Below are positions 28,111 to 62,724 of a DNA stretch of 64,000 nucleotides, one piece after another (within the stretch, counting starts at the first letter, position 1; every line of letters begins with the position of its first letter). The position numbers were made by a program, and so were the translations under genes. The notes below the pieces were generated by a model, which had not been told where the DNA came from, did no database searches, and saw only the letters and a program-made list of their open reading frames with translations. The stretch lies in assembly GCA_009693115.1 (NCBI GenBank), contig SHXW01000004.1, positions 1 through 64,000 of the forward strand, given 5' to 3'. Source of the stretch: Dehalococcoidia bacterium. GTDB taxonomy: Bacteria; Chloroflexota; Dehalococcoidia; Lucifugimonadales; Lucifugimonadaceae.

Positions 28111-29106
28111 ATGTATAACAGCGTGTTCCGTTGCAGGAGCGTTCTCCTGCTGACCGCCGCCACTGTGGTTGCGGGCATGGCAGCCTGCAGCTCAGATGGG
28201 AGTGTCACGCCCACGAATGCACCTGTTGGCCAGCAGACTATATCTCCGCCGACCCAGTCAGCACAGATGTTCAAGGGCAACATCGAAATCGATGGCTCTT
28301 CGACAGTTTTCATCATCACTCAGGCGGTGGCTGAGGAGTTCCGCAAGACCAACCCTGGTGTTCAGGTTCCAGTGGGAATCTCCGGCACTGGCGGAGGGTT
28401 CAAACGTTTCATCAATGGAGAGACCGACATCTCCGACGCCTCGCGCCCGATGACTGTCGCCGAGGCAGACCTGGCAAAAAAGAACGGCATCGAATACATC
28501 GAACTGGCGATCGCTTATGACGGCCTGTCCGTCATCGTCAACAAGGCAAACACCTTCGTCTCCTGCCTGACCACGGCGGAGTTGAAGAACATATGGAACA
28601 CCGGGAGCGCCGTGAAGGCATGGAGCGAAGTACGGCCCGGATTTCCCGCCAACCCCATACGCCTGTACGGCCCCGGCACCGACTCCGGCACATTCGACTA
28701 TTTCACCGAGGTCATCAACGGCAAGGCGAAGCAGTCCCGAGCTGATTTCACAGCGTCGGAAGACGACAACGTCCTGGTGCAGGGAATCGCGGGAGACAAG
28801 GGGTCGCTCGGGTACTTCGGCTTCGCGTACTTTGAGGAGAATCAGGACAAAATGAAGCTCGTCAGCGTGGACAGCGGCAAAGGTTGTATTTTGCCATCCA
28901 CTCAGACGATCAATGAAGGCGCATACGCCCCGCTATCCCGCCCGCTCTTCATCTATGTGAGCAAGAAGGCACTGGGCAGGCCGGAAGTGAAGGCGTTCGT
29001 AGAGTACTACCTGAAGAACGGCGCGAAGCTCGCTGCCGAAGTGGGCTACGTGGCCCTCCCGGCGAAGAGCTACGACGACGGACTGGCGAAGATCAAGCAG
29101 CCGTGA
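28111..29106 (+). CDS. pstS: Phosphate ABC transporter substrate-binding lipoprotein PstS
   Basis: Binds extracytoplasmic phosphate for PstCA. The 331-aa precursor has a lipoprotein signal: positive start, hydrophobic [13 protein letters not shown] and the lipobox AGMAAC with Cys about residue 26. Phosphate-binding motifs follow: [19 protein letters not shown] near 58, [22 protein letters not shown] near 91, and [14 protein letters not shown] near 190. The PstS_2-type length and the [17 protein letters not shown] segment fit. It is followed by pstC (130 nt) and pstA (4-nt overlap). Phosphate starvation control is expected from the family but no Pho box was recognised. Confidence 0.93.
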
Positions 29107-29236
29107 TTGAAGGCACGGCTTAACGTGCCATCGCTGGCTCATGCTCATGGCCCACTGGCATCAGGCGTGTTGGTCACTCCTGGCACATGGGGCTGCTGTA
29201 TTCTTAAACCGCCCTGCAACACTATTCGGGAACAAG

Positions 29237-30232
29237 ATGCGAGACTCACGCGTCGAAACGGCCAGCAACCCACCCTCGATGCCAGCCGGAAGCCCAGCGT
29301 CGCCGCTGCCACGTTTCCTCGTGCATGAGGACGCACTGGCCCGGCGTAGACGGCTGCGCCACTTTGAAGAGACTCTCGTAGTCTGGACGCTCCGCAGCGC
29401 AGCGCTGATCTCTGTCATCACAACTGTCGGCATCGTCGTAGTCCTGGTTCAGCAAAGCTTCGGCTTTTTCCTTCAAGTCCCGCTCTGGGACTTTCTGACC
29501 GGTACGACCTGGACTCCGCTCTTTGACCCGCAAAGTTTCGGCGTGCTGCCACTTGTTGCCGGGACGTTGCTGGTCGCCTCCATCGCCGGCATCACGTCTC
29601 TCGCTCTAGGGCTTGGGGCAGCGATTTACCTTTCTGAATACGCCCCGGACCGCACACGCCGCATCCTGAAGCCGGTGATCGAGATACTCGCCGGCATACC
29701 CACAGTCGTTTACGGGTACTTTGCCCTTTCGTTTGTAACACCCTTACTCCAGATGGTCTTCCCTGACCTGATCATTTTTAACGCGCTCAGCGCGGGAATT
29801 GTCATGGGACTCATGATCATGCCCATGGTTTCGACTCTCTCCGAGGACGCCATGGTCGCCGTGCCGCGATCACTACGTGACGCCGCCTACGCGCTCGGAG
29901 CGACCCGGTTTGAAGTGGCGACGAAAGTGGTTGTCCCAGCGGCCCTTTCCGGGATAGTGGCATCGTTCATCCTGGCACTCTCACGAGCAGTCGGAGAGAC
30001 GATGATCGTGGCGATCGCTGCGGGATCGACTCCGCGTATGACGTTCAACCCTATTGAGAGCGTCCAGGCCATGACCGGGTTCATAGCGCAGGTGGCGCTG
30101 GGCGACTCGCCTCAGGGGTCAGTGGCATACCAGACTATCTTCGCCGTGGGCTTGCTGCTCTTTCTCATGACCCTGGTGATGAACATTGCAGGCCGCTGGT
30201 TCGTGGCGCGTTACAGGCAGCAGTACGAATGA
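29237..30232 (+). CDS. pstC: Phosphate ABC transporter permease PstC
   Basis: A 331-aa inner-membrane permease with about six transmembrane helices (for example ISVITTVGIVVVLV and GVLPLVAGTLLVASIAGITS). The EAA loop that contacts the ATPase is seen in VPRSLRDAAYALGATRFEV, with AALSGIVASFILALSRAVGET after it. The cytoplasmic N-terminal arm is Arg-rich (RRRRLRHFEET). The ATG at 29237 follows GGGAA; a frame extension to 29141 has a poor start context. pstA overlaps its stop by 4 nt (ATGA), showing translational coupling. Confidence 0.92.
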   Translation: MRDSRVETASNPPSMPAGSPASPLPRFLVHEDALARRRRLRHFEETLVVWTLRSAALISVITTVGIVVVLVQQSFGFFLQVPLWDFLTGTTWTPLFDPQSFGVLPLVAGTLLVASIAGITSLALGLGAAIYLSEYAPDRTRRILKPVIEILAGIPTVVYGYFALSFVTPLLQMVFPDLIIFNALSAGIVMGLMIMPMVSTLSEDAMVAVPRSLRDAAYALGATRFEVATKVVVPAALSGIVASFILALSRAVGETMIVAIAAGSTPRMTFNPIESVQAMTGFIAQVALGDSPQGSVAYQTIFAVGLLLFLMTLVMNIAGRWFVARYRQQYE

Positions 30233-31122
30233 CAACCGTTGAGCGCAATCCGAAGCAGGCTGTACCGTCCAGGGATCTTGGCTTCAGGAAGTGGCGAGAC
30301 CGCGTCTTCGTCTGGCTTTTCATATCGAGCGTGCTAATCGGCATAGCTGGCCTGTTGACGCTGCTGGCCACGGTGTTTTTGGACGGCTGGTCGTGGCTGG
30401 ACTGGCAATTCATTACCAGCTACTCGTCACGCAAGCCCAAAGACGCTGGTATTTTTGCGGCGCTGATCGGGTCGCTGTGGATGCTGGGGATGACAGCCGT
30501 GTTCACCATCCCGATAGGCATAGGAACTGCGGTCTATCTGGAAGAGTTCGCCGGCAGGGGCAGGGTTACCAGGCTCATACAGATCAACATCGCCAACCTC
30601 GCAGGCGTGCCATCCATCATCTATGGCATGTTGGGGCTGGCGGTGTTCGTCTACTTCCTGAACATGGGTCGCAGCGTGGCGGCGGGCGCTCTGACAATGA
30701 CGCTGCTGGTGTTGCCGGTGGTCATCATCGCATCACAGGAAGCCATAAAGGCCGTGCCAAAGAGCTACCGTGACGCCGCCTATGCACTGGGCGCTACAAG
30801 ATGGCAGGTGGTCAAGACGGTGGTCCTCCCTCAAGCCGTGCCGGGGATGATGAGCGGGATCATCCTTGCTCTATCCAGAGCCATTGGGGAATCCGCCCCG
30901 ATTCTCATCATTAGCTCGCTTGTGTTCCTGACTTTCGTGCCGCACAACCCAGGAGACCGTTTCACCGTCCTGCCGCTCCAGATATTCACCTGGATGTCTT
31001 TGCCGCAGGCGGACTTCAAGGCCATAGCCTCCGCCGGCATCATCCTGCTTTTGATCGTGCTGCTTTCGATGAATGGCGTCGCCATCTTCATACGCAACAA
31101 GTACCAGCGGAAGCGGGAGTGA
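30229..31122 (+). CDS. pstA: Phosphate ABC transporter permease PstA
   Basis: A 297-aa permease pairing with PstC to form the membrane channel. About six helices are seen, and the EAA loop is VPKSYRDAAYALGATRWQV. GMMSGIILALSRAIGESAPILII is the typical helix after it. It starts inside the pstC stop codon (ATGA). The ATPase gene pstB and phoU, usually next, are absent; the following genes lie on the other strand. PstB must be encoded elsewhere for the importer to work. Confidence 0.92.
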   Translation: MTTVERNPKQAVPSRDLGFRKWRDRVFVWLFISSVLIGIAGLLTLLATVFLDGWSWLDWQFITSYSSRKPKDAGIFAALIGSLWMLGMTAVFTIPIGIGTAVYLEEFAGRGRVTRLIQINIANLAGVPSIIYGMLGLAVFVYFLNMGRSVAAGALTMTLLVLPVVIIASQEAIKAVPKSYRDAAYALGATRWQVVKTVVLPQAVPGMMSGIILALSRAIGESAPILIISSLVFLTFVPHNPGDRFTVLPLQIFTWMSLPQADFKAIASAGIILLLIVLLSMNGVAIFIRNKYQRKRE

Positions 31123-31251: not shown

Positions 31252-31755
31252 TCAGAGCGGCTTTGGGAGCGTCAGGTCAGCGATGACTTGTGCGCCATCC
31301 AGGCGCCGGAATATTTCAGGTACCACCTTGATCTTTGACGACCTGCTTCCTGATCCCAGGATGACGTAACCAAGTGACATCAGATTTCCATCCACATACA
31401 GGGGCAGCGCGGCTGGCAGCGACAGGCAGGTGACGCCGCCGATCATCATCCCGGTCAGGGCCACGGTCTGTTCAGCATCTGCGAAAGAGAGGCGTTTGAC
31501 TCCGAGCAGGTCAGACACGCGGTGGTTAACATCAAGCCGGCTTGTGGCCTGTACCACGCAAGCAGCGTAAGACACCGGCTCTTTCTTGGACGCCACAATG
31601 ATGGTATTGGCGGCGTTTTCCATGGGGAAGCCGTACTGCGCGCAGAAATTGGCGGTGTCCGCGAACGCCGGGTCTATCGGGACGATCTCATAAGGGACCC
31701 CGGCGCGGTTGAGATCTGCCAGTACCTTCCGTTCGGTTTCGTTGACCTGGTTCAT
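31252..31755 (-). CDS. YbaK/EbsC-family aminoacyl-tRNA deacylase
   Basis: A 167-aa single-domain protein of the YbaK/ProX type, which hydrolyses mischarged aminoacyl-tRNA (commonly Cys- or Ala-tRNA-Pro). Family features include TANFCAQYGFPMENAANTIIVASKK (the Lys lies in the binding region), VNHRVSDLLGVKRLSFAD and the C-terminal GGVTCLSLP...LYVDGNLM segment. Its ATG overlaps the hyuB stop by 4 nt (ATGA), so it is translated as the last gene of the hydantoinase operon. The biological link with that operon is not obvious. Confidence 0.82.
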   Translation of the reverse strand: MNQVNETERKVLADLNRAGVPYEIVPIDPAFADTANFCAQYGFPMENAANTIIVASKKEPVSYAACVVQATSRLDVNHRVSDLLGVKRLSFADAEQTVALTGMMIGGVTCLSLPAALPLYVDGNLMSLGYVILGSGSRSSKIKVVPEIFRRLDGAQVIADLTLPKPL

Positions 31756-33662
31756 GTGCCCTGACCAGTGCCACGCGCCGCCCTGGCACCCGTCTTTTTG
31801 ACCACCGTCTGTCTGGTATCTGCCTGTTTTTGAAGGCCGGTCTTCCTCATCTTGGAGCGTAGCCGTTGCGTCTCCCCTGCCTTCAACTTGAAAGTCCCAG
31901 ACTCCACCACCACTCCGTAGGCGGCGCGTGCGTGCGCGGTCGAGACCTTTTCATTACGGATGTCCTCTACGACAAGCTCCGGGTCGCGGTCCAGAGGGTC
32001 GCCCCAGCCGCCGCCGCCTGCCAGGAAGTGCGAGATCATCTCGTTCCGGCGCACCGGGAGTTGGGTCATTGTCCGCAACGTCCTGTCGCCACCCGCGGTC
32101 GTGAAAATGTTCATCGAGGGAGAGCCGGAACTGCCTCCCGCAAGGCCGTACGGGGGGTGCAGGCGCTTGTCGGAGCGTAACTGTAGGACGGCTTCAGGGG
32201 CAAGGCAGCGCACTCTACGCACTTGCGACAGCGCTCCACGGAATTTTCCAGCACCGCCGGAATCCTGCACCATTCCGTACTCCTCGATGCGGACCGGGTT
32301 GCCAGCTTCTGCGATTTCGACCGGGATACTGGCGATATTCGCGCCCGGGTGAGGCACACCTTCAGGGCCATCGCCGCCGGGACGGCCGCCGCGCGCTCCT
32401 GCGACGAAATCCACGAAGGCGAAAGGTCGGCCGTCGGCGTCATACCCGCCCATCGTGACAAGTGAATTGCCACCCTCGCCGTCAGCTGGAACCTTCTCCG
32501 GAACGGCCTGCGCCAGAGCACCGAGGACTGCGTCCATGACTCGGAAGCCGGTGATGCCGCGCGCTCCGCATGGTGCAGGCAACACAGGGTTAACGACCGT
32601 CCCCAAGGGAGCGCGCACCTCGATGGGGCGGTGATAACCAGCCGAGTTCGGGATCGAGGGATCCATGATCAGGCGTATCGCGCCGTAGACTCCAGCCTTG
32701 GAGAATGGCAGGGGAGAATTGATGCCAGCCTTGACTTGCATGGACGAGCCGCCGAGGTCCACCAGGATGCCTTCACCTTGTTTAGTGAGGGTGGCCTTGA
32801 TTACGACTGGACCGTTTTCGATGTTGTCAGCGTCTATGTAGTCGGTGAAAGAGTACGTACCGTCGGGTATCCGCATGATCTCCGCACGAGCAAGGCGCTC
32901 CGTGTAGTCAAGCAGTTCTTCCGTATAGCGGCGCATCTCAAGCCGTCCGTGGCGTATGGCCATCGCCTGGTAGCCACGTTCCCCTATGGCCGCTGCGGCA
33001 ATTTGCGACCGCAAGTCTCCCAGCACCTTGTCGGGCAGCCGTACATTCTTTTCCAAGATCTCGAATATTGGCTGGACCGGAACACCCTGTTCAAAGAGTT
33101 TCAGCGTCGGGATGCGGAGGCCTTCCTGATAGACATCCACAGAGTCCGTAGAGTTCGAGCCTGGTACTAGTCCTCCGACGTCTGTATGGTGGGCCACGAC
33201 ACCAGCGAAGCCTTCAAGGTGCAGTCCATGATCGGTGCCGACACCTACTGAACGCGCCCGCCCGATTCCTTTAGAACGACCGGGTACGGCCGACGTAGCG
33301 GATACGAACACCGGCTTGATGACGTATATGTCCGGCAGGTGAATACCGCCTGAGCCGTAGGGATCATTCATGATGAACATATCGCCCGGGTAAATGCGGC
33401 CCTTGAACTTGGACATGACGCTCGCTACGGCGTCAGGGAAGGAACCAAGGTGCAGAACGATGGTCAGGCCCTGGGCGATGACACGGCCCTCGCGGTCGCA
33501 GAACGCGGTGGAGTAGTCCATGGCGTCTTTGACGACACCTGAATAGGCCGTCCGCATCACGGTCAGGGCCATTTCGTCCACGAGGGACGCGAGGCCGTTC
33601 TGGACGACTTCAAAGAGGACAGGGTCGAAGTTCCGTTTATTGAATGACATTGCTTGTGACAC
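31752..33662 (-). CDS. hyuB: Hydantoinase B / N-methylhydantoinase beta-like subunit
   Basis: A 636-aa HyuB-family protein, partner of HyuA in ATP-dependent opening of hydantoin or oxoproline-type rings. Typical parts are FDPVLFEVVQNGLASLVDEMA at the start and MRTAYSGVVKDAMDYSTAFCD. Next come FIMNDPYGSGGIHLPDI (metal/substrate region) and the C-terminal block HFLAGGGGWGDPLDRDP. The C-terminus continues into a basic, low-complexity tail of about 40 residues. The start may be GTG at 33662 or ATG at 33650; neither has a good ribosome binding site. It lies downstream of the amidohydrolase gene (63-nt gap) and overlaps the deacylase gene. Acetone carboxylase and 5-oxoprolinase are family alternatives. 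Confidence 0.9.
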   Translation of the reverse strand: MSQAMSFNKRNFDPVLFEVVQNGLASLVDEMALTVMRTAYSGVVKDAMDYSTAFCDREGRVIAQGLTIVLHLGSFPDAVASVMSKFKGRIYPGDMFIMNDPYGSGGIHLPDIYVIKPVFVSATSAVPGRSKGIGRARSVGVGTDHGLHLEGFAGVVAHHTDVGGLVPGSNSTDSVDVYQEGLRIPTLKLFEQGVPVQPIFEILEKNVRLPDKVLGDLRSQIAAAAIGERGYQAMAIRHGRLEMRRYTEELLDYTERLARAEIMRIPDGTYSFTDYIDADNIENGPVVIKATLTKQGEGILVDLGGSSMQVKAGINSPLPFSKAGVYGAIRLIMDPSIPNSAGYHRPIEVRAPLGTVVNPVLPAPCGARGITGFRVMDAVLGALAQAVPEKVPADGEGGNSLVTMGGYDADGRPFAFVDFVAGARGGRPGGDGPEGVPHPGANIASIPVEIAEAGNPVRIEEYGMVQDSGGAGKFRGALSQVRRVRCLAPEAVLQLRSDKRLHPPYGLAGGSSGSPSMNIFTTAGGDRTLRTMTQLPVRRNEMISHFLAGGGGWGDPLDRDPELVVEDIRNEKVSTAHARAAYGVVVESGTFKLKAGETQRLRSKMRKTGLQKQADTRQTVVKKTGARAARGTGQGT

Positions 33663-33725
33663 TATTCGGGCTTTCTCAGTTTCGTATCGGAAATATCAAT
33701 TCGAAGCGTCTACAGATCTCTTCGG

Positions 33726-35321
33726 TCACGCCTTTCGCAGGACGTGACCCCCGTGCCGGCCGGTGAGTGCGCCATTCTCAAGCGTCAGCACTCCGTTCAC
33801 TACGGTGTACCTCATGCCCTCCGCGAGCAGGTTGGGAGAGTCTAACGTCCCCCGCTCGCGGAAGCTCAGAGGGTCGAAGGCGATGATATCCGCGACAGCG
33901 CCTTCCTTGAGGCGGCCGCGGTCTTTGAATCCCATTCGGTCTGCAGGGGCCGATGTGAGCTTCGCCACGGCTTGTCCCTGCGTCATGGTCTTCGTCTCGA
34001 CTACCATGCGACGCCAGAACCAGCCGGCCCACGTGAACGCGCCCATGAAAATATCGCCCGCGAGAAGCCCGTCCACGGCAAGCGCTGTCGCGTCGGACCC
34101 AATCGTGCAAAGCGGGTGGCGCATCGTACGCAACACGTCTTCCTCATCGTAGGAATGGCAGATGCAGAGGGGTGCGTGCGGATCCTCTGCGTGGGCGAGG
34201 AGAACGTCGAATACCGCGTCCCACGGGTCGCATGGTTTGGCCTTTGTCCCCAACGTCGCGATCTCTGCAAAACTCTTGCCTCTGAATTCCGGACGCTCCG
34301 GGCTCGTATACAGGGACACACGGTCCCAACCGCCCAAAACGAAGCTGGATATGATGCTCTTGTGCTCCCGGAACAGTGCCCTTTCACGCGGGTCTGAAAG
34401 GCGTTGGCGAAGTGTGTCCGCTCCGCCGTCAAAAGCCCAAGGGGGCAGGGCGTTGCTGAGGTTGGTGATGCCGTGAAGGCGCGTGTGTGAGTCAAAAGCA
34501 GCGTCAAGACCCAGGTCGCGGGCTCTTTCGACGGCGGCCACGCAGCGATCGAGAGAGCCGGGCGGGCCTGCACGACGCGGGATGATATGCGAGACCTGGA
34601 GGCGAACCCCGGCCTCCTGTGCTGTTCGCACCGCCTCTTGAACCGCTTCTACTGCATGCGTCTCGCGGTTTCGCGTGTGTGCGGCATAGATTCCGTCATG
34701 CCTGGCCATAACCTTGCAGAGGGCAACGATCTCCCTCTCGTCCGCCACCCGTTCCGCAGGGTATTCAAGTCCTGTTGACAAGCCCCATGCGCCCGCTTCA
34801 AGACACTCTTCCAGCCCGAATGCCATCTCCTTCAGTTCATCTGGCGTTGCAGGCCGTCCGGTTTCAAGCATCGCAGCCAAACGGAGGTTGCCGAACGGCG
34901 CCAGGCTGGCAACATTCACCGCGGGCCTGGCTCTCTCCATCCGGACAAGGAAGCCAGAAAATGACCGCCATGTGATCCCGGTTTGCGATGTCCAACCGTA
35001 AATGTTGCCTGTAAAACGGCTGGGGTCAGTTACAGGGGCACAACCGTGCCCACAGTTGCCAATGACCTCAGTTGTCACGCCTTGAAACGCCTGACTCTGA
35101 GCGCGGGGATCAATCAGAAGTGTGAAGTCCGAGTGGGAGTGGATGTCTATGAAGCCGGGGGCGACTAGAAGCCCCGTCGCGTCAAGTGTGGCGGCTGCCT
35201 CCCGGCCCGCGAGCCGGCCCATCGCGGCGATGCGCCCGGCCCTGATACCTACATCAATTTGCCGCGTAGGCCCGCCCGAGCCGTCTGCCACTGTGCCGCC
35301 ATTGATCAGCAGGTCAAACAA
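33726..35321 (-). CDS. D-aminoacylase-type amidohydrolase (N-acyl-D-amino-acid deacylase family)
   Basis: A 531-aa amidohydrolase-superfamily enzyme. The first metal motif is PGFIDIHSHSDF near residue 55. IGNCGHGCAP near 88 has the Cys that in D-aminoacylases binds zinc. STGLEYPA near 181 and the HTRNRETH segment hold the carboxylated or bridging region. LQVSHI contributes a His, and TIGSDATAL near 418 the catalytic Asp. The C-terminus has GRLKEGAVADIIAFDP. It would remove an N-acyl or N-carbamoyl group. Between hyuA and hyuB, it may cleave the N-carbamoyl product made by the hydantoinase, an inference. The start is TTG at 35321 without a clear Shine-Dalgarno sequence. Confidence 0.85.
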   Translation of the reverse strand: MFDLLINGGTVADGSGGPTRQIDVGIRAGRIAAMGRLAGREAAATLDATGLLVAPGFIDIHSHSDFTLLIDPRAQSQAFQGVTTEVIGNCGHGCAPVTDPSRFTGNIYGWTSQTGITWRSFSGFLVRMERARPAVNVASLAPFGNLRLAAMLETGRPATPDELKEMAFGLEECLEAGAWGLSTGLEYPAERVADEREIVALCKVMARHDGIYAAHTRNRETHAVEAVQEAVRTAQEAGVRLQVSHIIPRRAGPPGSLDRCVAAVERARDLGLDAAFDSHTRLHGITNLSNALPPWAFDGGADTLRQRLSDPRERALFREHKSIISSFVLGGWDRVSLYTSPERPEFRGKSFAEIATLGTKAKPCDPWDAVFDVLLAHAEDPHAPLCICHSYDEEDVLRTMRHPLCTIGSDATALAVDGLLAGDIFMGAFTWAGWFWRRMVVETKTMTQGQAVAKLTSAPADRMGFKDRGRLKEGAVADIIAFDPLSFRERGTLDSPNLLAEGMRYTVVNGVLTLENGALTGRHGGHVLRKA

Positions 35322-35419
35322 AGTGTGATCCCACGCCCGCTAACCCGTGTCCCCCGGAGGGAGGTCACATGACTGCCTCACCTGCCGACCAAAAGAGATG
35401 GCATCAAAGACAAACCCGC

Positions 35420-37585
35420 CTAACCACCTGCGCCGAGACTAATGACTATGTTGCCCTGACCGTCCAGACATGCCGTACAGCCGGGAGGCACGACCGTCGT
35501 GGCGTCATACTCCTCAATAATCAGCGGTCCGGAAACCGGTTTGGCGTTCAGCCCGGATCTTCCGATGACGTGTGTGTCGAGTAGGCCGTGCAGCCTGCCG
35601 AACGAGGCTTTTCTGGACGAAAGGATTCGTTTGCGCGTCACCGTAGATGCCTTCGCCATACCTGAGTTGACCTGCCCCTCCGCAGAGGAGACGGTCGCAG
35701 AAACACGGATGTTGACCAACTCCACCTCCTCGCCGGGAGCGTGATGGCCGTAAGTACGCTGGTGCTCTTTGTGAAAAAGCTCGACAAGGGTGCCTATTAG
35801 CCCTCCGCGCTCTGGAGCGGATGCATCCACTGTCAGTTCCCACGCCTGCCCGGTGTAGCGCAGGTCAGCCTGCCGCCGCCATTTGGTTCTTGATGCGAGA
35901 TAGCCTTCAGCAGCCATCACCCTGCGAGCCCGCGCCTCCACCTCTGCGAAGTCGCGCTCAACAGATGTATCAGTGGTTTCACCCGTCCGCGCGAAGACAG
36001 TCTGCACGAAGTGGTGTTCAGGCTCGGCCCCCAGCATCCCAACAGCCGAGAAAAGTCCGGGAGAAGGCGGGATGATGACCTTCGAGATGCCGAGTGCCTG
36101 AGCGAGACCCGCAGCGTGTACAGGGCCATTGCCGCCGAATGCAAAAAGGGCGCACTCCCGCGGGTCGCGGCCCCGGTATGTGGACACCGCCTTAAGGGCG
36201 CGGATCATGTTCGTATTGGCGACTGTGTGTACGCCGTATGCAGCTTCCTGAACGTCCAGCCCGAGCGGCGTGGCAATCTTGCTTTCCACAGCCCGGTGTG
36301 CCAAATCAGCGTTGACTTTGACCGCGCCGCCGGCCAGTCCCTCCGGATTGATGTACCCAAGAACTACGTTTGCATCGGTGACGGTCGGCTCAGTCCCGCC
36401 GAGGCCGTAACAGGCCGGACCTGGCACTGCTCCTGCAGACTGCGGGCCAACCTTGAGCGCTCCACCACGGTCTATCCAGACAATGCTCCCTCCGCCCGCC
36501 CCGACCTCTGCAATGTCCAGCACCGGCAGCCGGACGGCGTGGCCTCGGCCTTTTACCAGACGGCTCGAGAGTTGGATACCTGCGCCCACCTCGTACTCGG
36601 TCGTCCACGAACGCCTGCCGTCTTCGATGAGCGACGCCTTTGCCGTCGTGCCTCCCATGTCGAACGAGATGATGTTTTGTACGCCTGCCGCGAGGGCGGC
36701 CCGGTGCGCTCCGACCACGCCAGCGGCGGGGCCAGACTCGACTATGTAAGCCGGTTTTTCCGCCGCGGACTTCGCGGACATGACTCCACCATTGGATTGC
36801 ATGACCCTCAGCCGACCGCTGATTCTGGCATCCCGGAGGCCGTCCGATAGCGAATCCAGATAACGTTTCACGATGGGACCAATGTACGCGTTGACGACCG
36901 TCGTGCTTGTGCGCTCGTACTCCCTGATTTCAGGAAGTACATCAACAGAAAGCGACAGAAAGACGTCAGGCAGGCGTTTGCGGACAAGCTCGCCGATGCG
37001 CCGCTCGTGTGCCGGGTTGCGATACGAGTGCAGGAGGCAGACGGCCACTGCCTCAGCGCCATCTTGGGCTATTCGTTCCAGAGCAGCAATGACAGTCTTC
37101 TCGTCCAGTTGGCGGAGGACACCACCCTCTGCGCTCATGCGCTCATCCGCTTCAAGCCTGAGACGCCGTTCTACAAGGGGTTTCGGAGGGACGTAAAACA
37201 GGCTGAACAGTTCAGGCACGCGTAGGCGGCGGAGTTCCAGCACGTCGCGGAAACCCTTTGTGGTGATGAGTGCGGTCTTCGCGCCATGATTTTCCAAGAT
37301 GGCGTTCGTGGCTACAGTCGTGCCGTGGACGATCTCCGAGACAGCGCTGCCCGGCACGCCCGCGTCCCGGAGCATCGCGACCGTGCCCTCGACGATGGCG
37401 CGGGAGTAATCATCGGGCGTTGAAAGGACCTTCTTGGTCCACGTGCGGCCATCTGAGCCTGTCATCACGAGGTCAGTGAACGTGCCGCCTATGTCCGCGC
37501 CGACGCGGTATGTGGGCTTAAGTCGTGCTGGCATATGTTGCAGGGTGTTCAGTTGTGCCGTAGGGAGTGGCGCTTGCGGGTCCAT
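35420..37585 (-). CDS. hyuA: Hydantoinase A / N-methylhydantoinase alpha-like subunit
   Basis: A 721-aa HyuA-family ATPase subunit. The N-terminal phosphate-binding loop is VGADIGGTFTDLVM, and VHGTTVATNAILE lies near 95. SFDMGGTTAKASL near 313 is the second ASKHA-like motif. GGGSIVWID, a cluster at GPACYGLGG and FGGNGPVHAAGLA follow. Partner HyuB is two genes downstream. HyuAB pairs include ATP-dependent N-methylhydantoin amidohydrolase, 5-oxoprolinase and acetone carboxylase. The adjacent sarcosine-oxidase-like gene favours an N-methylated hydantoin substrate, an inference. The start may be ATG 37585 or ATG 37534. Confidence 0.9.
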   Translation of the reverse strand: MDPQAPLPTAQLNTLQHMPARLKPTYRVGADIGGTFTDLVMTGSDGRTWTKKVLSTPDDYSRAIVEGTVAMLRDAGVPGSAVSEIVHGTTVATNAILENHGAKTALITTKGFRDVLELRRLRVPELFSLFYVPPKPLVERRLRLEADERMSAEGGVLRQLDEKTVIAALERIAQDGAEAVAVCLLHSYRNPAHERRIGELVRKRLPDVFLSLSVDVLPEIREYERTSTTVVNAYIGPIVKRYLDSLSDGLRDARISGRLRVMQSNGGVMSAKSAAEKPAYIVESGPAAGVVGAHRAALAAGVQNIISFDMGGTTAKASLIEDGRRSWTTEYEVGAGIQLSSRLVKGRGHAVRLPVLDIAEVGAGGGSIVWIDRGGALKVGPQSAGAVPGPACYGLGGTEPTVTDANVVLGYINPEGLAGGAVKVNADLAHRAVESKIATPLGLDVQEAAYGVHTVANTNMIRALKAVSTYRGRDPRECALFAFGGNGPVHAAGLAQALGISKVIIPPSPGLFSAVGMLGAEPEHHFVQTVFARTGETTDTSVERDFAEVEARARRVMAAEGYLASRTKWRRQADLRYTGQAWELTVDASAPERGGLIGTLVELFHKEHQRTYGHHAPGEEVELVNIRVSATVSSAEGQVNSGMAKASTVTRKRILSSRKASFGRLHGLLDTHVIGRSGLNAKPVSGPLIIEEYDATTVVPPGCTACLDGQGNIVISLGAGG

Positions 37586-37768
37586 TGTTAACGAACCGCT
37601 GTATTCCGTCCCAGATGATCATTCTGCGTCCATTGAATTGGACTATTCGTTCGCCCCGGCCCGTATGGAGAACTTAGAAAGAGTGTGTCATCGGTGATGA
37701 GGTCAAGAGGACAGGCCATTACAGAAGACCGCAGCAATCACATCCAACATGACATCAAGCGACTCGCT

Positions 37769-38986
37769 TCAACTCTTGATGCCAGTCGGTCTTCTGGCGC
37801 GTCCTCCGGCCCTCTTGAATCTGCCCAGGCGCAGCAGGGCAATATCGTGGCGTGTAGCCCCCTTCGTCGCAAGATCCGCCATGACCTCGCCCACCACCGA
37901 GCAGAACTTGTAGCCGTGGCCAGAGAACCCAGCGGCGAATGATACCTGCGGGTGGGACGGGTGTACGTCAATGATGAAATGTTCGTCCGGTGAGTTGGTG
38001 AACATGCACGCTTTGAGGGCCATCGTCGGGCCGGAGGCGTCCGGGAAATACTTGTCTGTGAATTCGCGCAGGATCTGTTCATCAAGGGGGTTGCATCCAC
38101 GGTCGGGCGAGTCCGGGTCTATGGGCTCTCCCAGGTGGTGATAGCGGCCCACCTTGAAGCCTGGCACACCGTGTACGGGGAAGCCGTAGTAGCGGCCCTC
38201 TTCGACATGCAGGTTGAACACGGGAAACGTTTCGGGCTGGAAAAGCCCGGGTTTTCTGGGCTGGAACCAGGCCAGCACCTGCCTCTCAGGCACGGCCAGC
38301 CGTTTCAACTGCGGGATGAGCGTCCTCGTCCACGCGCCGGCAGTGATTACAAGCGCACCCGCCTCGTAACTGCCTCTATCCGTATCCACGCGCACGCCAC
38401 CTCCGGGTGTGACGTCCCAGCCGAGCACCCGTTCACGGCCGTGGATTGCTGCGCCTTTGGCCTGGGCCTGTTCCACAAAGGACACGATGCATCGCTCAGG
38501 AAGCAGGAAACCACCGTCTGGCTGGAGGAGGGCCATCGTTTCAGCAGGGAGGTGGTAGCCGGGATAGCGCCGGGTTAGTTCGCGGCTGGTGAGAACCTCA
38601 TGCCGCAGGCCGTGGATCTCACACGAAAGGAGGGATCCCTTGAAGACGTCGTGCCCAGGTGGACTGGCGTCCACCGAGCCCATGGTTCGAAGTAGCTCCT
38701 CGCCGACCTTTTTTTCTATCTCACGCCACAACTCATAGGAGCGCAGGAGCAGCGGGACGTACGAGGGGTGTTCGTAGTAGGCGAGGCGGATGATGCGCGT
38801 GTGACCGTGCGACGACCCACGGTCGTGGGGGATGTCAAACTGCTCCAGGCCAAGGACGCGGAGGTTGCGGCGCGAACCGGTAGCACGCCTGCGCGACAAC
38901 TCATAGACGGTCGCGCTACCCATGCCGCCTACCCCTATGACGATCACGTCGTATGTGTGTGATGAGGCCAGGAAGAATCTCTCCAA
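37769..38986 (-). CDS. Monomeric sarcosine/N-methyl-L-amino-acid oxidase (MSOX/MTOX family)
   Basis: A 405-aa FAD enzyme that oxidatively demethylates an N-methyl amino acid such as sarcosine, giving formaldehyde and H2O2. The dinucleotide motif is VIGVGGMGSATVYEL near residue 16. The family signature GSSHGHTRIIRLAYYEHPSYVPL lies near 57. The covalent-flavin Cys is expected at C327 in KACMFTNSPDEHF. GFSGHGYKF closes the active site. The start is TTG at 38986 with AGGA about 7 nt upstream; no ATG fits. It precedes hyuA by 183 nt on the same strand. N-methyltryptophan oxidase and pipecolate oxidase are close relatives. Confidence 0.85.
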   Translation of the reverse strand: MERFFLASSHTYDVIVIGVGGMGSATVYELSRRRATGSRRNLRVLGLEQFDIPHDRGSSHGHTRIIRLAYYEHPSYVPLLLRSYELWREIEKKVGEELLRTMGSVDASPPGHDVFKGSLLSCEIHGLRHEVLTSRELTRRYPGYHLPAETMALLQPDGGFLLPERCIVSFVEQAQAKGAAIHGRERVLGWDVTPGGGVRVDTDRGSYEAGALVITAGAWTRTLIPQLKRLAVPERQVLAWFQPRKPGLFQPETFPVFNLHVEEGRYYGFPVHGVPGFKVGRYHHLGEPIDPDSPDRGCNPLDEQILREFTDKYFPDASGPTMALKACMFTNSPDEHFIIDVHPSHPQVSFAAGFSGHGYKFCSVVGEVMADLATKGATRHDIALLRLGRFKRAGGRARRPTGIKS

Positions 38987-51872: not shown

Positions 51873-52463
51873 CTATTGCTTCCCTTTCGCCAGCGCAGCC
51901 TGCACCACACGCATTTGCTTCGGCATCCGAGCGTTTGACTCCCATGTCTGGTCAACGCCGTGCGCTGCGGACTCAGCGACGGTTCTCAGGTTGACCATGA
52001 CCGGGCCCGGCTCACGAAGCATCCGGGGTAGCTCGGTGACGAAAGACTCCAGGTCGTCGAAGTCGTACGCCGCCCGGTAGCCGGACGCCAGGGCGAGTGC
52101 CTTGAAGTCGGCCCGGTGCGGGACCGGCTGGCCACCTGTTACGGCGTAGATGCCGTTATCGAAGACGAAGTGGTAGAAGTTCACAGGCGCCATGCCTGCT
52201 ATCGTGACCAGACTGCCGAGGTTCATCAACAAGGAGCCATCACCATCGAGTGTGAGCACCTTACGGTCGGGCCTGCCCAGGGCGATACCCAACGCCACGG
52301 ACGAGGCTTTGCTCATGCCGTTCGAAATGTAGACATCGAGGTCAGGCCGTTTCGATTCCTTTGCCCAATAGCCGCTCTGGGTCATCGTCGAAACGCACAC
52401 GGCATCGCCGCGAAGTTTCGCGATGGTCACGACCGAATCTGCGTAGCGGATCATGTGTTGCAT
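51873..52463 (-). CDS. Sulfopyruvate/phosphonopyruvate decarboxylase-type ThDP enzyme, beta subunit (ComE-like)
   Basis: A 196-aa protein matching only the C-terminal, pyrophosphate-binding half of ThDP decarboxylases. Metal/ThDP motif GDGSLLMNLGSLVTIAGMAPVNFYHFVFDN lies near residue 74, with VYISNGMSKASSVALGIALG before it. Together with the gene upstream (alpha subunit) it forms a split enzyme like sulfopyruvate decarboxylase ComDE, which turns 3-sulfopyruvate into sulfoacetaldehyde. Phosphonopyruvate decarboxylase is the alternative. AGAGGAC precedes the ATG. Ninety nt separate it from the alpha gene on the same strand. Confidence 0.82.
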   Translation of the reverse strand: MQHMIRYADSVVTIAKLRGDAVCVSTMTQSGYWAKESKRPDLDVYISNGMSKASSVALGIALGRPDRKVLTLDGDGSLLMNLGSLVTIAGMAPVNFYHFVFDNGIYAVTGGQPVPHRADFKALALASGYRAAYDFDDLESFVTELPRMLREPGPVMVNLRTVAESAAHGVDQTWESNARMPKQMRVVQAALAKGKQ

Positions 52464-52553
52464 GTCCTCTTCTGTGTTGGGCTATTTCCTCGACCATAGG
52501 GAAGTTGGAACGAGGTCTTTCTATTCGCCAAGGATGACAGGCAGGACGCCAGG

Positions 52554-53057
52554 TTAGCCCGGCGCATACTCGCTGCCAATAAGCACGGCCCAGGGCTGGC
52601 CCGTCTTCTCAGCCCGCTGGAAGGCCAGAGGGATGCGGTCAAGATCGTCATCGCTTTCGATGATGTAGTAATTGACCCGCCACATATGCAGAAAAGGTTC
52701 CAGGAACTGCGCCGCGGTATCCGGCGTGTCACCGTGACGGTTATAGCCCCGATAGCCAATAAACATGACGACCGGCAGGTTGATGCCTAGCGCCATGCCG
52801 CGGAGTGCATCGCCCGATTCGAAAAGCCCCGCGTTTTGAATCATCACGACAGGTTTCTTGCCTGCGATCCAGAGGCCAGCGGCGATGGGTATGGACTCGC
52901 CTTCCCTGCTTACCGGCACAAGGTCAATGGCCTTCCCTGCTCGCAAGGCGTTATGAAAGTGGCTGGTTTCCGAATCGGGCAGGGCGACGATGTGTGTCAC
53001 GCCCTGTCCTTTTAATGTCTCGACGAGCCTGCTCGCTCGCAGTATCCCGTGCTTCAT
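52554..53057 (-). CDS. Sulfopyruvate/phosphonopyruvate decarboxylase-type ThDP enzyme, alpha subunit (ComD-like)
   Basis: A 167-aa protein corresponding to the N-terminal pyrimidine-binding half of a ThDP decarboxylase. The catalytic Glu lies in PVSREGESIPIAAGLWIAG near 50-68, and the next strand, KPVVMIQNAGLFESGDALRG, is typical of ComD and the phosphonopyruvate decarboxylase N-half. GYRGYNRHGDTP follows, then the segment FLEPFLHMWRVNYY. ATG 53057 was chosen, with AGGCAG upstream; the frame is open to 53123. The pair is divergent from aconitase. No phosphoenolpyruvate mutase or sulfolactate gene is adjacent. Confidence 0.8.
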   Translation of the reverse strand: MKHGILRASRLVETLKGQGVTHIVALPDSETSHFHNALRAGKAIDLVPVSREGESIPIAAGLWIAGKKPVVMIQNAGLFESGDALRGMALGINLPVVMFIGYRGYNRHGDTPDTAAQFLEPFLHMWRVNYYIIESDDDLDRIPLAFQRAEKTGQPWAVLIGSEYAPG

Positions 53058-53253
53058 GCTGCCTGCGCCCTCTTCCAATCCCCCCATCAAGGTGGAGGGG
53101 ACTTGGGGCCGCAATGCTAACATCCAGCCCTGTTCAAACCATATCGCCTACGTAACCCTCGCAAGCCAGCGCGCACGGCTGATACATTGAGAGCAATTTC
53201 CATCTGATAGACGAGAGTCAGACTACGGCAATTCTTGGGGGGCCCGACACCTA

Positions 53254-56202: not shown

Positions 56203-57561
56203 CTAGAACAAGGTCAGATACTGCTCTGTCTCCCAGCTGCTGACATGGTTGTGGAAGCGCACCCACTCTTTGCGCTTTACCGTCAGGAACTCGGCCGCAA
56301 GCTCAGGCCCAAGCGAGCCTTTGACCACGTCGTCCTTCTCAAACTCATCGAGGGCTTCCTGAAGGCTCTGGGGTATCAATTGGATCTTGCGACGACGCAC
56401 CTCGGAGAGTTGCATCGCGTACATGTTCTTGCCGGAGAAGGGGTCGCCAGGGTCGAGCTGTCGTTCGATGCCATCCATTCCCGCAGCTATGAACGCCGCA
56501 AGCATCAGATATAGGTTTACGCCGCCCGATACGGCGCGGCATTCAAAGCGGCCTGGCTCCGGCGTGCGGAACATGTGCGTGCGGTTGTTGTCGCCGTATG
56601 TGATGAACGCAGGCGTCCAAGTGAAGCCGGATACGGCGCCGGTAAGGTATTCGCCAACGGAAAGACGCTTGTAGCAATTGACTGTCGGAGCGAAGACTGC
56701 GGACAGCGACCGGGCATGCGTCATCAGCCCGGCGAGAAACTGGTAGGCGATCTGCGACTGCCCTAGCCCTCGCCTGTCGCTGCTATCGAGGAAGACGTTG
56801 CGGCCTGACTCGTCCCACAGCGAAAAGTGGATATGGCTGCCGCTGCCTGTCAAATTGGCGAACGGCTTGGGCATGTGCGTGGCGATGGCCCCGTGCTGTG
56901 CGGCGACCTGGTTTGTCATCATCTTGAAGAAGGTGTAGCGGTCCGCTGTCGTCAGTGCGTCCGAGTACTTCCAGTTCAATTCGTATTGCGCCCGGCCGTC
57001 CTCATGATCGGCGGCGTAAGGCTCCCAGCCAAGCTGCTCCATGTACGTGAGGAGTGTCCGCAGGTATCCGAGGCAGCCGGACAGGCTCTTGAAGTCGTAG
57101 CAGACCTTCGACATCGTATCGAAGCCCGACGGGTCGAACGGCACGATGGAACCATCAGGGCGCCGGGTGACGAGCATGTGTTCTGGCTCGACCCCCACCT
57201 TTAGCTGATAACCCTTCTTCTCCAGCCTCTTGATAGCCCGGTTCAGGACAACGCGGGAACAGTACGGCCACGGTTTGCCATCAACGTGGATATTGCAGGC
57301 GATCCGGGCTACGCCCTTCTCCCATGGCAAGACGGTGTAACTATCCAGATCGGGCAGGGCGGTCAAGTCATGGCTGTGCGGCCCCTGGCCCATTCCCACG
57401 GTGGCAGCGCCTGCGAACCCTGCGCTGCCTGCCAGGAACTGATCAACGGCACTTGCGGGTATGGCCTTGCAGCGTGGCGTTCCATTTATGTCCACCCACT
57501 GAGCCAGCAGCAGATTGACACCATCAGCCTTGATCTTGGATTTCAGTCCCCTTACGTCCAT
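56203..57561 (-). CDS. gmaS: Gamma-glutamylmethylamide synthetase (glutamine synthetase-like, GmaS/GlnT)
   Basis: Joins methylamine to glutamate with ATP, giving gamma-glutamylmethylamide, the first step of the N-methylglutamate pathway. The 452-aa protein is GS-fold. The beta-grasp N-terminus has VNLLLAQWVDINGTPRCKAIPAS. Catalytic-domain motifs are VEPEHML near 143 (metal-binding Glu; usual ExExFFL is altered to EPEHML), DHEDGRAQYELNW near 200, PKPFANLTGSGSHIHFSLW near 248 and NNRTHMFRTPEPGRFECRAVSG near 345. Short GlnT/GmaS type, not dodecameric GlnA. GGGAGG 6 nt upstream sets the ATG. It lies 99 nt after mgdA. Context rather than sequence alone separates it from glutamine synthetase III. 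Confidence 0.87.
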   Translation of the reverse strand: MDVRGLKSKIKADGVNLLLAQWVDINGTPRCKAIPASAVDQFLAGSAGFAGAATVGMGQGPHSHDLTALPDLDSYTVLPWEKGVARIACNIHVDGKPWPYCSRVVLNRAIKRLEKKGYQLKVGVEPEHMLVTRRPDGSIVPFDPSGFDTMSKVCYDFKSLSGCLGYLRTLLTYMEQLGWEPYAADHEDGRAQYELNWKYSDALTTADRYTFFKMMTNQVAAQHGAIATHMPKPFANLTGSGSHIHFSLWDESGRNVFLDSSDRRGLGQSQIAYQFLAGLMTHARSLSAVFAPTVNCYKRLSVGEYLTGAVSGFTWTPAFITYGDNNRTHMFRTPEPGRFECRAVSGGVNLYLMLAAFIAAGMDGIERQLDPGDPFSGKNMYAMQLSEVRRRKIQLIPQSLQEALDEFEKDDVVKGSLGPELAAEFLTVKRKEWVRFHNHVSSWETEQYLTLF

Positions 57562-57660
57562 GACGACCTCCCATGTAACGCATCCCTGACGGACGAGACA
57601 TCATCACTATCTGCCGCAGACTACCCACTACGCTCTGCCCAAAAGACGGCAGGAATGTTC

Positions 57661-58872
57661 TCAGTGAGACACGGCGGCTGCCGCTTTCTCACCGAGCAGG
57701 TTGCCCTTAGCAAAACGCTCTATTGAGAAGGGTTTGATGATGTCTGGCGTGCGCCCTGTGGCGATCATCTCTGCGATGCGCTTGCCAGACACCGGCCCGG
57801 CCTTGAAACCGTATGTCCCCCAACCAACGTCCAGCACGAACCCCTTCATGTATGGGACCGTACCCATGATCGGGCTGTAGTCCGGTGTCATGTCACACAC
57901 GCCAGCCCATTGGCGCAACACCTTAACGCCGCCGATGCTCGGTAGCAACTCCAGGATGTGCGAGGCGCTCTGCTCCATGAACGGCAGCGTAGAGCGATTG
58001 CTGTAAGAGGCATAAGGGTCAATCTCGGCACCGATGACCAGTTCGCCGCGGTCGGTCTGGCTCACGTAGCAGTTCAGTGTGGCTGAGACTAGCACTGGGT
58101 CGAGGAACGGCTTCAACGGCTCCGTCACAAGTGCCTGTAACGGGTGCGAGACTATCGGAAGTTTCAACCCAACCATGGCCGCAATAGTCGAAGCCCATCC
58201 GGCTGTCTGGTTGGTGATAATCCCTGTCTGGACTTCGCCCCGCGTCGTTTGCACGGCTTTCACCGCGCCGTTGGACACTGATATACCGGTCACATTGGTG
58301 TAAGGGTGTATTTCAACACCCAGACGGTTTGCGGCACGTGCGTAGCCCCAGACCACAGCATCGTGCCTGATCACCCCGCCCGGCGGGTGGTAGAGCGCCG
58401 CCAGAATTGGATATCTGGGCAAGTCTGACAGGTCGAGCGCCGGGACAAGCTTTGCGATCTCGTCGTGGAAAATTACCCGGCTGTTGACTCCCAGGATCTG
58501 GTTGGTCTCGGCCCGCACCCGCAAGCCAGTGATCGCCTGATCGGTATGTGCGAAGGTGAGGTGGCCGCGCTGGCTGAACATGACGTTCATGTCAAGTTCA
58601 ACCGACAACTTCTCGTAGATCTTTACCGATTCATCGTAAAACGCCACGCCTTCGCTCGTGCGGTAGTTCGAGCGGATGATGGCGGTGTTGCGGCCGCTTG
58701 ATCCTGCTCCAATGTAGAAACGTTCCAGAACCGCGATGTTGCGCACACCGCGCTTCGCCAACTCGTAGGCGGTTGCCAGTCCATGGACCCCTCCACCGAT
58801 GATGACAACATCGTAGGACTTCTTGAGAGGCCTGGGCGTGAACAACTTGAGTTTACGTAACGTGCTGAACAT
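57661..58872 (-). CDS. mgdA: N-methylglutamate dehydrogenase subunit A (sarcosine oxidase beta-like)
   Basis: A 403-aa FAD-binding subunit homologous to SoxB, the beta subunit of heterotetrameric sarcosine oxidase. The FAD motif DVVIIGGGVHGLATAYELAKRG is near 20. RGHLTFAHTDQ, the SRVIFHDEIAKLVPAL region and the C-terminal GVCDMTPDYSPIMG and GWGTYGFKAGP follow. The subunit takes part in oxidative cleavage of N-methylglutamate to glutamate with transfer of the methyl carbon to tetrahydrofolate. Three nt separate it from mgdD upstream. The ATG is clear. Heterotetrameric sarcosine oxidase is the alternative, but gmaS and mgsC on the same strand favour N-methylglutamate. Confidence 0.88.
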   Translation of the reverse strand: MFSTLRKLKLFTPRPLKKSYDVVIIGGGVHGLATAYELAKRGVRNIAVLERFYIGAGSSGRNTAIIRSNYRTSEGVAFYDESVKIYEKLSVELDMNVMFSQRGHLTFAHTDQAITGLRVRAETNQILGVNSRVIFHDEIAKLVPALDLSDLPRYPILAALYHPPGGVIRHDAVVWGYARAANRLGVEIHPYTNVTGISVSNGAVKAVQTTRGEVQTGIITNQTAGWASTIAAMVGLKLPIVSHPLQALVTEPLKPFLDPVLVSATLNCYVSQTDRGELVIGAEIDPYASYSNRSTLPFMEQSASHILELLPSIGGVKVLRQWAGVCDMTPDYSPIMGTVPYMKGFVLDVGWGTYGFKAGPVSGKRIAEMIATGRTPDIIKPFSIERFAKGNLLGEKAAAAVSH

Positions 58873-58875
58873 GAT

Positions 58876-59553
58876 CTACCGCTCTTCCAGCACATGGTTG
58901 CCGACGGGTATCAGGCCATATCGGTCGCCAGTGTGAATCAGCGCGTTCCACATGTAGGCGGCATAGTCCCGCGGGACGAGTATGGTGAAGCCGGGGAGGG
59001 CGGCCAGGTCCTGCCGGGCAAAGGTGACGCGCACGTTGGCGACCGGCCCGTGAACGATCTGACCGTCATGCAAAACATCGGGCCCCAGGTCTATCGGACA
59101 AAGTTCCGCAAAGATCTTTCCTACGCTGGGACCGATGAGCCTGAGCGCCGTGAACGCTGAGCTCATGTCGACGGCCGAGACCAGCTGACCGGTGATGTCG
59201 GGAAGCGCTGTGCCGTGTCGGGACAGGAGAATGGAATGGTCGGGAGCGTCGCTCCACACGTCGAGCATCGCGCCACCAACCGTACAGGCCGTGGCTTTGC
59301 CGATGACGAACTGAACTTGAGCGCTATTCAATGCCGGGGACGTGCCTTTACCCTGCACGACCAACTTGTTTAATGGACCCCAGTCAATCAGGCCCGCTGT
59401 TGAGCGCGCCGCCTCTGCTTCCGCAACAGGGTTGCCATAGTCAATGGGCCAGCGTAGGCACGGAGCGCGCCACCGGGCGTTCAAGCGCTCGTGCAAGGCA
59501 TCGAGCGGGCTGGATCGCACAGAGTTTCCTGCGTTGACGCGTGCGGTGGTCAC
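58876..59553 (-). CDS. mgdD: N-methylglutamate dehydrogenase subunit D (sarcosine oxidase gamma-like)
   Basis: A 225-aa SoxG-type subunit with a GcvT-related fold, poorly conserved in the family. Visible features are a segment with RLIGPSVGKIFAELCPIDLGP in the middle and GFTILVPRDYAAYMWNALI near the end, typical of the folate-binding-like C-terminal part. GTG at 59553 overlaps the mgdC stop by 4 nt (GTGA), indicating translational coupling. It lies 3 nt before mgdA. Confidence 0.82.
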   Translation of the reverse strand: MTTARVNAGNSVRSSPLDALHERLNARWRAPCLRWPIDYGNPVAEAEAARSTAGLIDWGPLNKLVVQGKGTSPALNSAQVQFVIGKATACTVGGAMLDVWSDAPDHSILLSRHGTALPDITGQLVSAVDMSSAFTALRLIGPSVGKIFAELCPIDLGPDVLHDGQIVHGPVANVRVTFARQDLAALPGFTILVPRDYAAYMWNALIHTGDRYGLIPVGNHVLEER

Positions 59554-62435: not shown

Positions 62436-62724
62436 GCTGCGCCTCCGGCCTATGCACGTCCGGGGCGACACCTTTACTTGATGGAGATGAACCGGTCACA
62501 CGGTTGTCGCGAGTGTCGCGCTCAGCCTGAAACCAGCGGCGGCAACCCTGACTATGGAACCACCACGCCCGTTCAATGCCCGCTGCGTTGGTCTTCAAGT
62601 AAAGATAGCCTGCCCAGACATCGGGGTCAGAACCTGGCTCGGGCCTGCTCTTGACCTCGCCACCATACCTGAACTCGTAGGCGTCCCTTGGACCGCAAAG
62701 CGGGCACGGCAGCAGGAACGACAT
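62428..62724 (-). CDS. mgdB: N-methylglutamate dehydrogenase subunit B (sarcosine oxidase delta-like)
   Basis: A 98-aa SoxD-type subunit. A zinc-binding pattern CPLCGPRDAYEFRYGGEVKSRP opens the protein, followed by WAGYLYLKTNAAGIERAWWFHSQGCRRWF, where His and Cys complete the zinc site, and ERDTRDNRV, all typical of the delta subunit. The C-terminal tail is extended and basic. ATG 62724 overlaps the mgsC stop by one nt (TAATG). It overlaps the mgdC start by 8 nt. Confidence 0.9.
   Translation of the reverse strand: MSFLLPCPLCGPRDAYEFRYGGEVKSRPEPGSDPDVWAGYLYLKTNAAGIERAWWFHSQGCRRWFQAERDTRDNRVTGSSPSSKGVAPDVHRPEAQRD

Follow-up and report, generated by a model that had tools for sequence, protein, structure and literature searches.

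A 64,000-nucleotide stretch of a Dehalococcoidia bacterium genome (assembly GCA_009693115.1, contig SHXW01000004.1, positions 1 to 64,000; hereafter the window) carries a gene encoding a metal-dependent amidohydrolase (AMID) between the genes encoding HyuA and HyuB, the two subunits of an ATP-dependent cyclic amidase-type enzyme. What do these three proteins do together, and do the flanking genes, encoding a monomeric sarcosine oxidase (MSOX)-like flavoprotein and a YbaK-like protein, belong with them? A first-pass annotation of this DNA had proposed a route from creatinine-derived N-methylhydantoin to glycine. On balance, we favor a two-step route in which HyuAB would open a ring and AMID would hydrolyze the product to an amino acid, with AMID representing a new subfamily that lacks the usual substrate anchor. 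The genome (G000; 2.02 Mb in 40 contigs, the window lying on contig C27) is 95.6% complete.

The conserved unit

A search of 75 further genomes from the same family, with AMID as the query, identified eight orthologs (46-55% identity), the next matches being at 39% or below. Seven of the eight have the order HyuA-AMID-HyuB on a single strand, and in the eighth (G037) HyuB-HyuA adjoin a divergent AMID. Outside this group, named genomes of Gemmatimonadetes (L053), Planctomycetia (L054), Alphaproteobacteria (L056) and Betaproteobacteria (L057) have the order HyuA-HyuB-AMID, and contig L052 encodes a HyuB-AMID pair. The cassette thus occurs in two gene orders across distant phyla. Overlaps of 4 bp between AMID and HyuA or HyuB occur in several loci (L037, L038, L039, L052 and L054). 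In G186, which belongs to the same taxonomic order as the window genome, HyuA and AMID stand together and HyuB is alone on another contig; the retention of this lone HyuB despite the split also favors a joint function.

Maximum-likelihood analysis of 62 homologs places AMID within a clade of 17 sequences from six phyla (support 100/100). HyuA and/or HyuB adjoin AMID in 15 of these, which come from the taxonomic order of the window genome and from Gemmatimonadota, Planctomycetota and Pseudomonadota. The genomes of the remaining two, L051 (Acidimicrobiia) and L055 (Spirochaetia), encode HyuAB elsewhere. Among 79 named-genome AMID homologs (L125, truncated within the gene, was set aside), HyuA or HyuB occurs in the flank of 5/7 clade members versus 0/72 others (Fisher p = 9e-7).

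The flanking genes behave differently. MSOX orthologs (48-67% identity) are encoded in 29 of 76 genomes, the window's own included, but only G000 and G075 have one at a Hyu locus, which makes 2 of 8 testable loci. G075 has the order MSOX-HyuA-AMID-HyuB, with MSOX about 1.2 kb from HyuA. None of seven other MSOX neighborhoods that we read contains Hyu genes, and the cassette-bearing genomes G069-G072 have no MSOX ortholog at E<=1e-80; in these four, genes resembling the E1 alpha and beta subunits of a thiamine pyrophosphate (TPP)-dependent dehydrogenase lie upstream of HyuA (assigned by eye). The linkage, together with the cassette genomes lacking MSOX, rules out MSOX as a core member. The YbaK-like gene adjoins HyuB in the window only and is present at none of the relatives' cassette loci, which rules it out as a pathway member; its protein scores 44 bits against TIGR00011, below the cut-off of 153. 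The conserved unit is therefore HyuA-AMID-HyuB and not the whole five-gene set, and grouping beyond chance holds for these three genes only. Of the HyuA-amidohydrolase-HyuB-MSOX order, whose conservation the first-pass annotation had proposed as a check, the first three genes are conserved among relatives; MSOX joins them in a single relative.

Metal site and substrate anchor of AMID

The metal-binding and catalytic residues of AMID (H61, H63, C90, H215, H245 and D410) are invariant in our ortholog alignment (A1), and Tyr187 occupies the place of the amide-binding Tyr. In L056, a clade member outside A1, a Gln is aligned with H245. AMID shares its fold, zinc ligands, catalytic Asp and amide-binding Tyr with D-aminoacylase (PDB 1m7j; chain numbering in our alignment is the published numbering plus one), N-acyl-D-glutamate deacylase (3gip) and the GlcNAc1A deacetylase OngB (9kb1). 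Fold comparison of the predicted model ranks D-aminoacylases and OngB first (E about 1e-31 to 1e-26), with allantoinase and hydantoinase far behind (about 1e-14). At residues 58-119 and 409-431, the metal loops, the predicted structure (nine sequences) has a predicted local distance difference test score (pLDDT) <50, and pocket geometry was therefore not taken from the model.

In OngB, the substrate alpha-carboxylate is anchored by Lys254, Tyr285 and Arg379, which do not vary among OngB-like and D-aminoacylase-like sequences, as described in a 2025 structural paper (PMC12017989). Unlike in these enzymes, all three are missing throughout the HyuAB-linked clade, where SHxK is changed to SHxxPR, DxYPY to DxHTR and PHPRxYGTFPR to FxGAYTWA. 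In the window protein, Ile247 replaces the Lys, His279 replaces the Tyr, and the Arg of the HPR motif is absent. The clade instead has its own signature (SHxxPR, DxHTRxxG and GSDATAL..DGPLA..F.GAYTWA), in which the conserved R249 and R281 are candidate replacement anchors. Because the anchor residues are lost and the zinc site and catalytic Asp are kept, AMID is best treated as a distinct subfamily; the lost triad rules out a plain D-aminoacylase. Judging from its residues, AMID appears to be a previously undescribed type of metal amidohydrolase that probably retains the bond-cleaving chemistry and anchors its substrate in a new way. The earlier label "D-aminoacylase-type" holds for fold and metal site, but does not extend to substrate anchoring.

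These genomes carry an expanded AMID gene family, with five AMID-type matches in G000. In another genome (L166; G296:C140), two AMID-type amidohydrolase genes lie in tandem on one strand. Our literature search retrieved no paper linking D-aminoacylase, hydantoinase and operon in the sense of this cassette, and the SAR202 genome papers that we searched mention neither the D-aminoacylase nor an oxoprolinase.

HyuAB and the candidate two-step route

HyuA has all of the ATP motifs (DxGGTxTD, DMGGT and GxxPGP), and HyuB residues D49-H108-D111-H158 match the CapB metal tetrad (reference residues from PMC8453981). The pair is like N-methylhydantoinase (PDB 7hk5) and caprolactamase CapAB (PDB 6yra) in domain architecture, ATP motifs and this Asp-His-Asp-His metal site, and HyuA over its whole length scores best against N-methylhydantoinase and CapA. 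Unlike their D(I/M)GGTSxD, however, the window HyuA reads DMGGTTAK, and it belongs to a clade separate from 7hk5, which groups with CapA and ApcC. The Lys after GGT is an Asp in N-methylhydantoinase, CapA and ApcC, and a Lys in the acetophenone carboxylase alpha subunit; the caprolactamase paper describes this site as the most notable charged difference close to the substrate site (PMC8453981).

HyuAB relatives without AMID adjoin genes encoding alanine/serine racemase, a D-amino-acid dehydrogenase with RidA, a threonine-dehydratase-like enzyme, 3-hydroxy-D-aspartate-aldolase-like enzymes and isochorismatase-type hydrolases. These genomic settings point to an amino acid, possibly a D-amino acid, as the likely product of HyuAB-dependent pathways. 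AMID-less HyuAB orthologs in L235, L236, L239, L240 and L041 adjoin a BhcC-like pyridoxal phosphate (PLP) enzyme of the 3-hydroxy-D-aspartate aldolase family, forming a second conserved cassette (assigned by profile scan for the L235 protein and by sequence likeness for the other four). G000 itself encodes a second HyuB-HyuA pair (L044; G000:C32, 2392-6793), sharing 33% and 43% identity with the window proteins and with no AMID nearby. The window HyuB has an insertion of about 25-30 residues just ahead of the last metal ligand (residues 121-148; window 33191-33302), which is missing in most orthologs, shorter in G075 and longer in the second HyuB of G000.

The hyuABC genes of Pseudomonas sp. 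NS671 likewise combine an ATP-dependent ring-opening enzyme of two subunits with a further amide hydrolase. There, the further hydrolase, HyuC, is an M20-type metallopeptidase homolog, whereas its counterpart in the window is a zinc amidohydrolase of the D-aminoacylase type with a Cys/His/His site. In NS671, HyuAB makes N-carbamyl amino acids, from which HyuC frees the amino acids (PMC8453981). From this precedent and from the anatomy of the window proteins we infer the two steps, their order, the N-acyl or N-carbamoyl chemistry and the kind of substrate. HyuA would activate a cyclic amide, imide or hydantoin using ATP, and the ring would be opened at the HyuB metal site. The resulting linear N-acyl or N-carbamoyl compound would then be hydrolyzed to an amino acid by AMID, a mononuclear zinc enzyme with the D-aminoacylase (subtype V) type of structure, which would recognize its substrate by means other than the usual Lys/Tyr/Arg carboxylate anchor. 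The amino acid could be handed to whichever host enzyme is encoded nearby: the MSOX-like oxidase, a flavin adenine dinucleotide (FAD) enzyme, in the window and one relative, with a 3-hydroxy-D-aspartate-aldolase-like PLP enzyme, racemase or D-amino-acid dehydrogenase perhaps serving instead in close HyuAB relatives without AMID.

The intact HyuA ATP motifs, the HyuB metal tetrad and the AMID metal and catalytic residues count in favor of this route. Several points weigh against it. L051 and L055 have no HyuAB in the examined flank (about 10 kb on each side); the HyuA Lys, placed as in acetophenone carboxylase alpha, makes the assignment as a hydrolase uncertain; and, with the carboxylate anchor lost, HyuAB might yield something other than an N-carbamoyl amino acid.

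The steps could also run the other way, with AMID acting first (by ring opening, ring deamination or N-acyl removal) and HyuAB acting on its product, given that the gene order HyuA-AMID-HyuB does not set the reaction order and that cyclic amidases (allantoinase and hydantoinase) are among the amidohydrolase-superfamily relatives with the next-best folds. We consider this unlikely: AMID has a Cys/His/His subtype V site, its D-aminoacylase fold match exceeds that to hydantoinases by at least 12 orders of magnitude, and characterized members with such a site hydrolyze acyclic N-acyl bonds (PMC12017989).

The first-pass route, in which HyuAB is an N-methylhydantoinase, AMID hydrolyzes N-carbamoylsarcosine and MSOX oxidizes sarcosine to glycine, draws on the MSOX-like protein itself. 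This protein matches the monomeric sarcosine oxidase/N-methyl-L-tryptophan oxidase family (PDB 1zov and 2uzz) over its full length and keeps the covalent-flavin Cys (C327) and the flavin and substrate residues H60, R64, R67, Y267, K278, H283 and K360, including the carboxylate-binding Arg and Lys. Unlike the reference proteins, it has Phe329 in place of Tyr317, lies below the NCBIfam soxA_mon cut-off (317 bits, cut-off 480) and has variable genomic neighbors; it is above the cut-off for PRK11259, N-methyl-L-tryptophan oxidase (475 bits, cut-off 257). As the Cys that attaches the flavin is kept, and Tyr317 is the one checked substrate residue that differs, an N-methyl amino acid is a reasonable candidate substrate. 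The G075 gene order also agrees with the N-methylhydantoin route, as does the result that a canonical N-carbamoylsarcosine amidase (isochorismatase family) was not found in the 95.6% complete genome, whose sole isochorismatase-family protein has nicotinamidase as its top match (157 bits against a cut-off of 174).

Against the N-methylhydantoin route, most cassette loci lack MSOX, four cassette genomes lack any ortholog at E<=1e-80, and even in G075 MSOX is set apart from HyuA. HyuA differs at the Asp/Lys site and is outside the N-methylhydantoinase clade, and its relatives have D-amino-acid enzymes as neighbors. The window also encodes a cluster of the heterotetrameric sarcosine oxidase family (SoxB, SoxG-like, SoxA and SoxD; 57661-62724), 19 kb from the cassette, with subunit scores below the NCBI curated cut-offs that place it at family level. 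We therefore find the route from creatinine or N-methylhydantoin to glycine decidedly improbable as a specific claim; the assignment is possible, with support no better than for several others. A link to creatinine through the one creatininase-family gene of the genome (C34) was rejected, as this gene is away from the cassette and its family is functionally mixed. The broader proposal that the amidohydrolase replaces the usual amidase in the N-carbamoyl step fares better: HyuAB linkage across phyla, the catalytic residues and the failure to find a canonical amidase make it plausible for AMID to fill an N-carbamoylase slot, though specificity for N-carbamoylsarcosine is unsupported.

Instead of an amidase, HyuAB might be an ATP-dependent enzyme akin to carboxylases, with AMID handling the carboxylated product or an unrelated amide. 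The TTAK-type phosphate loop is that of acetophenone carboxylase alpha (DVGGTTTKASII), unlike CapA, N-methylhydantoinase and ApcC, and CapAB itself requires bicarbonate (PMC8453981). We consider this explanation quite improbable, however, as the enzyme has two subunits, as in hydantoinases, the top matches to the full HyuA sequence are N-methylhydantoinase and CapA, and the neighboring genes encode amino-acid enzymes. A chance or selfish grouping of catabolic genes with no common pathway, as the expanded AMID family and the merely occasional neighbors MSOX and YbaK might suggest, is highly improbable given linkage limited to one AMID clade (p = 9e-7), distant phyla, two gene orders and 4-bp overlaps.

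Gene neighborhood and significance

The five ORFs (open reading frames) at 31252-38986 are all open and on the minus strand, at the positions and with the family types first annotated, each with a Pfam match (Table 1). They are read from the MSOX end (38986) to the YbaK end (31252), with gaps of 183 bp (MSOX-HyuA), 98 bp (HyuA-AMID) and 63 bp (AMID-HyuB), and HyuB and YbaK share the 4-bp ATGA overlap at 31752-31755 (gap of -4 bp). A promoter/terminator pattern scan at the locus gave nothing above chance; thus, strand and spacing are the basis on which the five genes are predicted to form an operon.

Table 1. Genes and sequence features of the cassette and its flanking genes (window coordinates).
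Feature	Position	Strand	Details
MSOX-like FAD amine oxidase, accessory	38986-37769	-	TTG start, 405 aa; Pfam DAO 163 bits
HyuA, putative ATP-binding (ASKHA) subunit of ATP-dependent cyclic amidase, DMGGTTAK subtype	37585-35420	-	721 aa; Hydant_A_N 178 and Hydantoinase_A 332 bits, far over cut-off
AMID, subtype-V (Cys/His/His zinc) amidohydrolase of HyuAB-linked clade	35321-33726	-	TTG start, 531 aa; Amidohydro_3 98 bits
HyuB, putative metal-binding hydrolytic subunit	33662-31752	-	GTG start, 636 aa; Hydantoinase_B 520 bits
YbaK/tRNA_edit-domain protein	31755-31252	-	167 aa; tRNA_edit 64 bits
AMID residues 405-440, clade signature in place of D-aminoacylase PHPRxYGTFPR motif	34002..34109	-	Alignment of 62 homologs
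HyuA residues 309-323, DMGGTTAKASLIEDG, phosphate-binding loop with diagnostic Lys K316	36617..36661	-	Site discussed in PMC8453981

Genes resembling the phosphate transporter PstS-PstC-PstA (28111-31122, plus strand; assigned by eye) are convergent with the cassette. Elsewhere in the window, two adjacent ORFs at 51873-53123 (minus strand) resemble, by eye, the subunit pair of a TPP-dependent 2-oxoacid decarboxylase, and a type III glutamine-synthetase-like gene precedes SoxB, SoxG-like, SoxA and SoxD (whole span 56203-62724, minus strand). Another distant DAO-family match lies at C27:65847-66974.

Tentatively, and with rather less confidence than in the two-step route itself, we suggest that AMID may be a new family of zinc N-carbamoyl- or N-acyl-amino-acid hydrolases with its own carboxylate recognition, evolved as a partner of HyuAB. 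Together they may break down a cyclic nitrogen compound by a previously undescribed catabolic route, in six phyla whose carrier lineages are mostly uncultured. Genes of the hydantoinase/oxoprolinase type are abundant in environmental genomes, most of them with no assigned substrate, and a conserved partner with a clear sequence signature is a handle for tracing the substrate of HyuAB. Linkage to AMID sets one HyuAB group apart from the many paralogs labelled N-methylhydantoinase or 5-oxoprolinase, and annotation of this AMID clade as "D-aminoacylase" is unsafe.

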